Source: Verrucomicrobiota bacterium (lineage in GTDB: Bacteria; Verrucomicrobiota; Verrucomicrobiia; Limisphaerales; VHDF01). From it: a stretch of 55,765 nucleotides of DNA. Every line of letters starts with the position of its first letter. The stretch's first letter is position 1. The notes under the pieces are model-generated. The model saw only the letters and a list, made by a program, of their open reading frames with translations, was not told the origin of the DNA and did not search any database. Made by a program: the position numbers and the translations under genes. Positions 3,728 through 6,594 of the stretch are shown piece by piece. Where the stretch lies: positions 1 through 55,765 of the forward strand of contig VHDF01000025.1 in NCBI GenBank assembly GCA_016871495.1, read 5' to 3'.

Positions 3728-3985
3728 TTATCCTCCGGAGACGGCGGGGAGGAAAATGACTTCGTCGCCATCGGCGAGCGGTGTCTCGATTCCAGCGCGG
3801 TCTCGCATGTGTTCGGTGTTGATAAAAACGTTGATGTGGCGCCGGACGGCGCCGGTTTCATCGCAAAGGCAGACGTAGAGTTCCGGGTGCCGTTGCTCCA
3901 ACATCTCCAAGAGCGCCCGCACGGTGGCGGCTGGCAACTGAAGGGAAGCGAGTCCCTCGCATCGTTCACGCAACGGAGACGGCAC
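3728..3985 (-). CDS. MoaD/ThiS-family ubiquitin-like protein
   Basis: The frame encodes a small beta-grasp protein beginning near VHVPSPLRER and ending DGDEVIFLPAVSGG. The C-terminal Gly-Gly is the residue pair that is adenylated or thiocarboxylated in sulfur-carrier proteins of this family. I chose a GTG at 3985 (85 residues); the frame is open to an ATG at 4144, but that longer form would run across the operator and start of the divergent gene and adds a non-conserved N-terminus. Homologs usually have a few residues before the HVPSPLR strand, so the exact start is uncertain. It lies 5 bp upstream of the BNR-protein gene in the same direction, which suggests co-transcription. No ThiF/MoeB activator or MoaE partner is in the window. 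Confidence 0.75.
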   Translation of the reverse strand: MPSPLRERCEGLASLQLPAATVRALLEMLEQRHPELYVCLCDETGAVRRHINVFINTEHMRDRAGIETPLADGDEVIFLPAVSGG

Positions 3986-4095
3986 ATGAACAGAGACGGC
4001 GTGAGGCTGCGGATCATCCCCGCCACGAGAGCAAGGCGGAGGAGCGACTGTCGCAAGCCCTCGGCATTCAGGTCGGAGAAAGCTTTGACTTTTCG

Positions 4096-4112
4096 ACTTT
4101 GCAGTGCAAAGT
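4096..4112. promoter_or_regulatory. Candidate operator 1: ACTTT-N7-AAAGT palindrome
   Basis: ACTTTGCAGTGCAAAGT is a perfect 17-bp inverted repeat with a one-base centre. It ends 6 bp before the ATG (4119) of the membrane-protein gene that is co-transcribed with the winged-helix regulator at 4748. The same ACTTT-N7-AAAGT architecture recurs at 5099-5115, in front of the next gene. The simplest reading is an autoregulatory binding site for that regulator. Binding is inferred only from symmetry, placement and recurrence. Confidence 0.55.
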
Positions 4113-4118
4113 TTTTGC

Positions 4119-4751
4119 ATGCCTTCCCGTTCGGCGGAAGCCAATTTGGCCGCGATTCGAACGTTGATGGAGCGGTCGGCGCTCTATCGACGAGCGGTGG
4201 CGCCCTTGCAAGTCCTGGCCGGAGTTGTGGGGGTCACGGGGGCGCTGTTTGGCGTGGCCTTGGACATGAAGGACCCCCGCCAGACGGTGATGTTCTGGAT
4301 GTTCACCGGGCTCGTGGTCGGCACCTTTGCCTTGGTGCTGGTTCGCCGTCAGGCTTTGGGTGCGGGCGAGCGGTTTTGGACCCCGCCCGCGAGGCGCGTG
4401 CTTCAAGCCGTGTGTCCCGGGTTCGCCGCCGGAGCCATCCTGGCGGTGCCCACGCTGTCCGACCGTCCCATGGGCAAAGCCATGGCCGAGCTGGTCCCTG
4501 CGCTTTGGATGGTTTGTTACGGATTATCGATGCATGCGGCGGCTTTTTTCCTGCCGCGTGGGCCCCAGCTTTTGGCGTGGTTGTTCATCGCCACGGGCGC
4601 GGCGCTCGGGCTCGCGTTTGCCTTTTCCTGGTGGAAACCGAAGCCCTCGGATTTTCACTGGTGCATGGGAACCGCATTCGGCGGGTATCATCTCGTCAGC
4701 GGGGTGGTGCTGCGCTGGGCTGAAAAGAGGGATCCCGATCTCGTGTCATGA
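4119..4751 (+). CDS. Hypothetical multi-spanning membrane protein, coupled to a winged-helix regulator
   Basis: The start is placed at ATG 4119 (MPSRSAEANLAAIRTLM) rather than 4104, because the earlier ATG lies inside a perfect palindrome. The product of 210 residues has several hydrophobic helices (VLAGVVGVTGALFGVAL, MFWMFTGLVVGTFALVLV, LLAWLFIATGAALGLAFAF) and a C-terminal FGGYHLVSGVVLRWAEK segment. I cannot assign a function. Its TGA overlaps the ATG of the following regulator gene (ATGA at 4748-4751), so the two are translationally coupled. This pairing of a small membrane protein with a winged-helix regulator suggests a self-regulated module. Confidence 0.72.
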   Translation: MPSRSAEANLAAIRTLMERSALYRRAVAPLQVLAGVVGVTGALFGVALDMKDPRQTVMFWMFTGLVVGTFALVLVRRQALGAGERFWTPPARRVLQAVCPGFAAGAILAVPTLSDRPMGKAMAELVPALWMVCYGLSMHAAAFFLPRGPQLLAWLFIATGAALGLAFAFSWWKPKPSDFHWCMGTAFGGYHLVSGVVLRWAEKRDPDLVS

Positions 4752-5065
4752 CCTCCACTTCCCTTCATCATCAACTCGACAGGGTCATCCATGAAAAAGG
4801 CCGGCTGGCCATCGTGTCCATGCTGGCCGCCGCGCGGGAGCTTTCCTTCACGGAAATTCGGGAAGCCCTGGGCATGACCGATGGCAACTTGATCACTCAC
4901 TTGAAGACGTTGCAGTACGCGGGATTCCTGGTCGTGTCCAAAACCTTTTCCAATCACCGTCCCCTGACGACCTGCTCCCTGACCGGGGATGGTCGCAAGG
5001 CCTTCGAACAATACTTGGACCACATGGAGGCCTTGGTCCGGCAGCATCGAAAAGCACAGCCCTGA
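4748..5065 (+). CDS. Winged-helix transcriptional regulator (HTH_34 / ArsR-MarR-like)
   Basis: A 105-residue single-domain DNA-binding protein. The helix-turn-helix reads LSFTEIREALGMTDGNLITHLKTLQ, followed by the wing, FLVVSKTFSNHRPLTTCSLTGDGRKAF, and a C-terminal helix, the usual layout of the short PF13601-type winged-helix regulators, which lack a separate sensor domain. Its start overlaps the stop of the upstream membrane-protein gene. Candidate operators at 4096-4112 (in front of its own operon) and 5099-5115 (in front of the next gene) share spacing and half-sites, so it probably represses or activates both units. The signal it senses is not visible; no metal-binding cysteine cluster is present. 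Confidence 0.85.
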   Translation: MTSTSLHHQLDRVIHEKGRLAIVSMLAAARELSFTEIREALGMTDGNLITHLKTLQYAGFLVVSKTFSNHRPLTTCSLTGDGRKAFEQYLDHMEALVRQHRKAQP

Positions 5066-5098
5066 TTTTTGAACAAAAACAAGCCGCCACGGTCAGAG

Positions 5099-5115
5099 AC
5101 TTTTTGAAGCAAAGT
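5099..5115. promoter_or_regulatory. Candidate operator 2: ACTTT-N7-AAAGT
   Basis: ACTTTTTGAAGCAAAGT has the same outer half-sites and the same 7-bp spacing as the perfect palindrome at 4096-4112, and the inner GC before AAAGT is also shared. It lies 34 bp after the regulator stop codon and 22 bp before the first possible ATG of the next membrane-protein gene. It is read as a second, imperfect binding site of the winged-helix regulator encoded at 4748-5065. Confidence 0.45.
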
Positions 5116-5137: not shown

Positions 5138-5659
5138 ATGCCTCCTTGGATCGCGCGAATGGACCGTTGTCTCATGATCACCGAAATCTGGCTTGAACCT
5201 TCCGCCGCCGCTCTGGCGGCCATCCCCTGGAGGGTGTTCCAAGAATCGGGAGGAGTTCATCTTTTCCTGGCCGGACTCGGCTGCGGCGCCTGGATCTTGC
5301 GCCGCGCGCCTCGACTCTGGCCCCAGTTCTTCATCGGGTTCGTGGCTTGCCTTGCCGGTTATCTCAATTTGTTGACGGACGAGATACGCTTGGCTGCGCG
5401 CACGTCTTTCACGGCTGCCCTCTTCGCCGGATTCCTCCGCCCCGCCCAGTCTCCGCGCTGGGTTCCTTGGATCGCGCTTCCGGTTCCGGTGGGTGAGTTC
5501 CTGCGCCACGCCTGGACCCAGCCGATGCCCAATCTCACGGCGATTCTCGCGGCCTGCACGGTGCTGTTCCCGGTGACGCTTGGAGTCATGCTGGGTCGGC
5601 TTGGACGCCGTCGGTCGCTCAAGAACCCCATCTCTTCGCACGTCATCGCCCGTTCCTGA
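5138..5659 (+). CDS. Hypothetical membrane protein downstream of the winged-helix regulator
   Basis: Up to 173 residues with hydrophobic segments (GGVHLFLAGLGCGAWIL, FFIGFVACLAGYLNLL, SFTAALFAGFL, AILAACTVLFPVTLGVML) and a basic C-terminus. Alternative ATGs at 5159 and 5174 (MITEIWLEP) are reasonable starts; the frame gives no decisive ribosome-binding site. I do not recognise a family. It is separated from the regulator by about 70 bp containing candidate operator 2, so it may belong to the same small regulon. The next gene, ispH, begins 5 bp after its stop, so some ispH transcription may come from this promoter. Confidence 0.6.
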   Translation: MPPWIARMDRCLMITEIWLEPSAAALAAIPWRVFQESGGVHLFLAGLGCGAWILRRAPRLWPQFFIGFVACLAGYLNLLTDEIRLAARTSFTAALFAGFLRPAQSPRWVPWIALPVPVGEFLRHAWTQPMPNLTAILAACTVLFPVTLGVMLGRLGRRRSLKNPISSHVIARS

Positions 5660-5664
5660 ACTCT

Positions 5665-6594
5665 ATGCGTATTCTTCGAGCCAAACATTTGGGCATGTGT
5701 TTTGGGGTAAAGGACGCCATCGCCATGGCTCAATCGTCCGCCGCTCAGAACCCCGAACCCCTCACCATCCTGGGCGATTTGGTTCACAATCCGACCGTGC
5801 TGGAGGATCTGCGCCGCCAGGGGATTCGTTTCGCACCACTCTCCTTGGAAGCGCCCCAGGGCCCGGTGATGATCACCGCCCACGGCACGTCGGATCATAT
5901 TCGCGCCCTGCTGTCGCACCAGACTTCCACCGTGCTGGACGGCACGTGTCCCCTGGTTCATCATGCGCATCAGGCGTTACGGGCGTTGGTGGACACCGGG
6001 CATTATCCGGTGGTTGTTGGGGTGGCCGGGCACGTTGAAGTACGGGGATTGACGGGGGATTTCGAGGAATTCTCCGTGGTGTTGACCGAGAACGACTTCC
6101 GCGACATGCCTCGGCGAGCCCGATATGGGGTGGTGGCTCAAACCACTCAGCCCATTGCCCGCGTGACGGACTTAGTGTCGGCGATGCGGCGGCATTTTCC
6201 GGATGCGGCGGTGGAGTTTCGGGACACCGTGTGTCGTCCGACCAAGCAGCGGCAACAAGCCGCCGAAGCTCTGGCTCGTATTTGTGACGTGGTGGTGGTG
6301 ATTGGCGGCCGTCACAGCAACAACACCCGCGAATTGGCCGCCACCTGCGCCGGCGCTGGCGCGCGCTCGCTCCGGATCGAGCAGGCCTCCGAACTCAGGC
6401 CGGAATGGTTCGATCAAGCAGAAACCGTCGGGATTACGGCGGGGACCTCCACGCCCGACGCCGATATCGAGGCGGCTGAGGCGTGGCTGCAATCCCTGGC
6501 GGCCCGCCGGGGAGGCTCGGGTGAACAGACCCACGAGTGGATGGGATCGATCCCCGATCGATTTCCTGCCTCATCCGAGGTGACAGGAAGGTAG
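5665..6594 (+). CDS. ispH: 4-hydroxy-3-methylbut-2-enyl diphosphate reductase (IspH/LytB)
   Basis: IspH carries out the last step of the MEP isoprenoid pathway, reducing HMBPP to IPP and DMAPP with a 4Fe-4S cluster. The 309-residue protein has the three expected cluster cysteines in GMCFGV (near residue 12), DGTCPLVHHAH (near 95) and DTVCRPTKQRQ (near 190), and the substrate-binding histidines in LVHNPTV and TAHGTSDH. The glutamate region usually following TQTT is here QTTQP. VIGGRHSNNTREL and GITAGTSTPD are typical of the C-terminal domain. Length fits the family, with a short non-conserved tail after about residue 285. It starts 5 bp after the preceding membrane-protein gene. Confidence 0.93.
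   Translation: MRILRAKHLGMCFGVKDAIAMAQSSAAQNPEPLTILGDLVHNPTVLEDLRRQGIRFAPLSLEAPQGPVMITAHGTSDHIRALLSHQTSTVLDGTCPLVHHAHQALRALVDTGHYPVVVGVAGHVEVRGLTGDFEEFSVVLTENDFRDMPRRARYGVVAQTTQPIARVTDLVSAMRRHFPDAAVEFRDTVCRPTKQRQQAAEALARICDVVVVIGGRHSNNTRELAATCAGAGARSLRIEQASELRPEWFDQAETVGITAGTSTPDADIEAAEAWLQSLAARRGGSGEQTHEWMGSIPDRFPASSEVTGR

Follow-up and report, generated by a model that had tools for sequence, protein, structure and literature searches.

In Bacillus subtilis, the membrane protein SdpI, which has six transmembrane helices (PMC11995493), sequesters the autorepressor SdpR at the membrane (PMC1626106). The [4Fe-4S] enzyme IspH is sensitive to oxygen (PMC8837944), and Mycobacterium tuberculosis has a pair of homologues, LytB1 and LytB2, that are not interchangeable; the abstract of that report mentions no linked regulator or operator (PMC4550268). 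A full-text search, with subscription journals mostly outside its coverage, returned no paper naming PF13601 or HTH_34 and no regulon described for this family, and we found no earlier description of the circuit proposed here in the literature on PF13601/HTH_34 and on palindromic regulons of Verrucomicrobia.

The locus lies in a 55,765-nucleotide stretch of a Verrucomicrobiota genome (the window) and is organized in the order site 1, gene A, HTH_34 regulator, site 2, gene B and ispH/lytB:

4085–4090, forward strand: −35-like TTGACT before site 1 (consensus TTGACA across 91 aligned loci, 11 bp ahead of the first base of the site)
4096–4112, forward strand: operator site 1, ACTTTGCAGTGCAAAGT, a perfect palindrome (8-1-8) kept at orthologous loci
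4119–4751, forward strand: gene A, a 210-residue membrane protein and putative regulator partner, with no Pfam family and an orthologue in 101 of 101 loci
4748–5065, forward strand: winged-helix regulator of the HTH_34 family (PF13601), 105 residues, overlapping gene A by 4 nt (ATGA)
5069–5074, forward strand: −35-like TTGAAC of the site 2 promoter, conserved across 95 aligned loci at 30 bp ahead of the first base of the site
5099–5115, forward strand: operator site 2, ACTTTTTGAAGCAAAGT, an imperfect palindrome retaining the outer ACTTT/AAAGT half-sites
5138–5659, forward strand: gene B, a 173-residue membrane protein, a lineage-specific insertion between site 2 and ispH
5665–6594, forward strand: short-type ispH/lytB (PF02401), a second IspH and the conserved target of site 2

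The start of gene A should be the ATG at 4119 rather than the GTG at 4104 within the palindrome, because the start codon lies 7–8 bp past the site in most relatives. A ThiS/MoaD-like gene (3728–4144, reverse strand) is transcribed divergently from gene A; its long reading frame crosses site 1, and the gene therefore probably begins further in, at about 4000.

The regulator matches HTH_34 with 87.7 bits (cut-off 27) over positions 2–80 of the 80 in the profile and is the sole PF13601 protein in its genome. It shares the domain with Pyrococcus PH1061 (PDB 1ub9), which is its best PDB match (E 4e-10). It is also related in winged-helix fold to the ArsR/SmtB metalloregulators (HTH_5, 34.9 bits), but it scores 33.4 bits against NF033788 (cut-off 55) and has a single non-conserved cysteine with no metal-binding cysteine pair. 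Protein A is predicted to form six helices (pLDDT 92) and carries a conserved N-terminal segment, LMERSxxYRRALAP, that hydropathy places ahead of the first membrane span. It has no Pfam match above cut-off, and a Foldseek comparison of its predicted fold with the PDB gave no match with E below 0.001. Like SdpR and SdpI, the pair combines a small putative autorepressor lacking a sensor domain with a polytopic membrane protein in a two-gene operon, and the six predicted helices of protein A equal those of SdpI. However, the regulator reaches only 17.5 bits against the SdpR model NF033789 (cut-off 100), protein A has neither the SdpI Pfam match nor a confident PDB fold match, the membrane-protein gene comes first here, and the targets are ispH and allied genes rather than toxin immunity.

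Exact ACTTT-N7-AAAGT is found at four places in the 5.05-Mb genome, two of which are sites 1 and 2, and site 2 of the window is weaker than the consensus. The genome-wide scans were pattern searches rather than weight-matrix searches and would miss degenerate operators such as this one. Within the window the statistics are modest, with at least two matches at no more than one mismatch in 6 of 100 shuffles, and the palindrome pair taken alone is no more than suggestive. Comparison across loci decides the matter. Of 146 genomes examined from the order Limisphaerales, about 103 have an orthologue of the regulator, mostly at 50–68% identity (two weak matches left out), and 100 orthologous loci from this order together with the window form a comparison set of 101. 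The orthologues overall cover this one order in depth and the phylum by sample. Using a threshold of at least 14 of 17 positions, 91 of the 101 loci match ACTTTGYRNYRCAAAGT both before gene A and behind the regulator. The best match reaches this threshold in 95% of 92 site 1 zones and 94% of 96 site 2 zones, versus 0.7% of 669 other 700-bp windows and none of 101 shuffled zones, and chance palindromes are ruled out by this comparison. Most relatives have just these two sites genome-wide. Six genomes without the regulator were searched; five have no site and the sixth (G048) has one, inside an open reading frame. Many of the genomes are metagenome assemblies, in which absence from a single genome carries little weight. 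As expected for a regulon, the operator is conserved before orthologous targets and absent where the regulator is missing.

These comparisons bear on the original prediction, which had placed ACTTT-N7-AAAGT sites at 4096–4112 and 5099–5115, where both are indeed present. It had also described a regulator without a sensor domain, and the profile search agrees, finding one HTH_34 domain alone. Its proposal of a small autoregulated regulator with two operators is supported by the conservation of both sites, and the palindrome it had suggested looking for upstream of orthologous operons is there, with both sites at 91 of 101 loci.

In three genomes (G035, G097 and G011; loci L110, L118 and L124) site 1 is gone although gene A and its neighbouring regulator are kept. 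A half-site is left at this position in G097 and G011, and their distant ispH has a perfect site; autoregulation appears to have been lost and regulation in trans retained. In another relative (G005; L025, 535–760), site 1 has upstream of it a repeat array of ACTTT..AAAGT-like elements, such as GACTTTGCTCAAAAAAGTC.

The gene conserved behind site 2 is ispH. It is adjacent to the regulator in 92 loci, of which 91 contain site 2, and its product belongs to the IspH/LytB family (PF02401, 253.6 bits; cut-off 24.5), with IspH as the nearest PDB sequences. In the short type the three cluster cysteines (C12, C95 and C190) and the active-site residues H41, H73, H123, E125, T160 and T161 are invariant. 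Gene B probably shares a transcript with ispH. It has no Pfam family and no good match in 145 relatives (the best, 25 bits in G046, is at the same position) and is ruled out as the target of site 2 by this lack of conservation. The regulon had been predicted to comprise two membrane proteins; this is not supported, as gene B lacks conservation and site 2 precedes the short-type ispH instead. Six other loci (L039, L075, L109, L113, L129 and L132) have varied small membrane-protein reading frames in the gap between site 2 and ispH, a slot that seems to accept variable passengers.

A long-type ispH elsewhere in the same genome (G000:C65) encodes a product ~27% identical to the short type and has no site, and no site precedes any of the long-type genes examined. 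Two or more LytB genes are present in ~97 of 103 genomes with a regulator orthologue versus 2 of 43 without (counted from tables), and the exceptions are mostly incomplete genomes. As with LytB1 and LytB2 of M. tuberculosis (PMC4550268, abstract), one bacterium has two IspH homologues; here the second copy goes with a dedicated regulator, and does so phylum-wide.

Five genomes (G115, G097, G011, G043 and G045) have the short ispH away from the regulator, with a perfect or near-perfect operator ~20–60 bp ahead of it, and G035 retains an operator ahead of a broken ispH fragment. G082 has a short ispH with no regulator detected and no operator, and relatives of gene A without a nearby regulator (L295, L297) likewise have no site. 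Together, the sites at relocated ispH genes and their absence without the regulator indicate that the palindrome belongs to the regulator and that it would act in trans.

A third operator in the window's genome (C84:9715–9731; L190:2716–2732) is located ahead of a ferritin-like gene, ~37 bp from where this gene probably starts; an aldehyde dehydrogenase gene is its neighbour. The position gains meaning from relatives, in which homologues of the ferritin-like gene sit directly behind ispH. Its product has a predicted fold similar to those of R2-like ligand-binding oxidases and aldehyde-deformylating oxygenase (Foldseek probability 1.00, with E only about 0.01–0.3), with an invariant carboxylate/histidine pattern of the kind typical for di-metal sites. 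Isolated sites in relatives precede genes for CreD, for B12-binding radical SAM proteins and for three membrane-protein families labelled here memb1, LLRGE and Yip1-like, most of which are also found in ispH operons of other genomes. CreD and memb1 in G137, and LLRGE/Yip1-like genes in G008, G117 and G040, have their own site when outside the ispH operon, and this arrangement, like that of the ferritin-like gene in the window's genome, is strong evidence for one regulon. No match to memb1 was found in the window's genome, although an empty search has little weight. The original proposal of a self-contained module is not supported, given a third site at another place in the genome and further sites in relatives; a role in an envelope response, also proposed there, is a possibility.

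The two promoters differ in layout. At site 1 the consensus TTGACA ends 5 bp upstream of the palindrome and the start codon follows 7–8 bp downstream. With a 17-bp spacer after TTGACA, the −10 element would fall in the palindrome's right half and transcription would begin at the start codon or close to it, such that site 1, judged from this spacing, would overlap the −10 and transcript start region. At site 2 a GGTC (5091–5094) upstream of the site is conserved together with the −35-like element, and the transcript start would lie under the operator. No −10 box is recognisable in either promoter and the promoter assignments are therefore partial. The positions of both operators suit repression by occlusion.

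Other families of the class, and other orders of the phylum, have the same set of gene A, regulator and operators; ispH is often located downstream, and the recognition helix SDGNLxTHLRTL is nearly unchanged across these lineages. In one family a variant membrane protein is paired with a protein related to the regulator, and the sites there are similar. Some genomes of another family (L278–L281) have two tandem operators before gene A, ~33 bp apart. In a distant relative (G493), RCTTTGYNNNRCAAAGY is present 264 times (backwards control: 1), in several cases inside open reading frames, alongside only four HTH_34-type matches; these copies have the look of a palindrome iterated many times, not of a regulon. 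G495 has 18 sites (loci L307–L310 for the two genomes).

The sites, their conservation and link to the regulator, the spacing of −35 element, operator and start codon, and the target genes were all read from genome comparison, and the reading that we favour, at a probability of roughly 0.6, is a negative-feedback circuit with an HTH_34 autorepressor, operators placed over its promoters and protein A as a membrane-bound partner. The 105-residue protein would bind the palindrome as a dimer. Occupancy of site 1 would shut off its own operon with gene A, and occupancy of site 2 would shut off the transcript of the second ispH, together with gene B in the window's genome only; at the third operator the same regulator would control the ferritin-like di-iron protein in trans. 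Protein A would hold or release the regulator on a membrane or redox-linked signal, in the manner of SdpI and SdpR. Once repression is lifted, more IspH would be made and, in a species-dependent manner, CreD, ferritin-like, B12-radical-SAM and small membrane proteins as well. Because the regulator lacks a sensor domain and protein A is co-made with it in every lineage, protein A is most likely its membrane partner, which is the simplest proposal. Counting against this reading are the missing kinship of protein A with SdpI, the loss of site 1 from three genomes that have the regulator, the unrecognisable −10 boxes and the weak site 2 of the window. The oxygen sensitivity of IspH and the metal dependence of the ferritin-like and radical-SAM proteins point to redox or iron stress; a reasonable guess for the inducing signal is either this or membrane lipid state. 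More tentatively, a membrane-tethered HTH_34 repressor may read the state of the membrane (e.g. an isoprenoid lipid or quinone) and control the second IspH throughout the phylum.

Other readings share parts of this evidence. The regulator could repress the same genes while sensing its own ligand or redox state, with protein A as a regulated envelope effector; autoregulated operons often hold effectors, membrane proteins are among the other targets in relatives, and most regulators have a cysteine in the wing (TTCSLT). We consider this doubtful, since gene A accompanies the regulator in all lineages whereas the other targets vary and the regulator has no ligand domain. Several orthologues have Leu, Tyr or Phe in place of the wing cysteine, and this residue is ruled out as an invariant redox switch. 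An activator, or a self-repressor that activates ispH, is improbable: the −35-like TTGAAC 30 bp before site 2 gives a layout unlike that of site 1, but each operator would sit on the −10 or start region, on the downstream side of the −35 element, where activators seldom bind.

The connection between palindrome and HTH_34 protein comes from sequence comparison, and an unlinked regulator could in principle own the operator, with the HTH_34 gene as a passenger. That is very unlikely given that sites are missing from nearly all tested genomes without the regulator, that they follow it across orders and that the recognition helix is conserved alongside the motif. There is next to no likelihood that the palindromes are a chance pair or a functionless dispersed repeat. 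Shuffles of the window do yield such pairs in 6% of cases and G493 shows that similar palindromes can be dispersed, several within reading frames. Against it, the sites keep their positions throughout the order, genomes have about two copies each and the rate in control windows is 0.7%, and for Limisphaerales chance is refuted by conservation of the sites at orthologous loci.

The proposed negative-feedback circuit gives one branch of the widespread and undescribed HTH_34 family its operator, its targets and a probable partner. In a phylum in which gene regulation has received little attention, it also connects this branch throughout with an isoprenoid-synthesis enzyme that is sensitive to oxygen. 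The operator is highly conserved and the regulon can therefore be read straight from genomes. Why a second, separately controlled IspH is kept is now a testable question. If the regulator does read membrane state, the circuit would be a phylum-wide feedback from the envelope to isoprenoid supply through the last enzyme of the MEP pathway, with a widely conserved operator and extra targets that vary among species.
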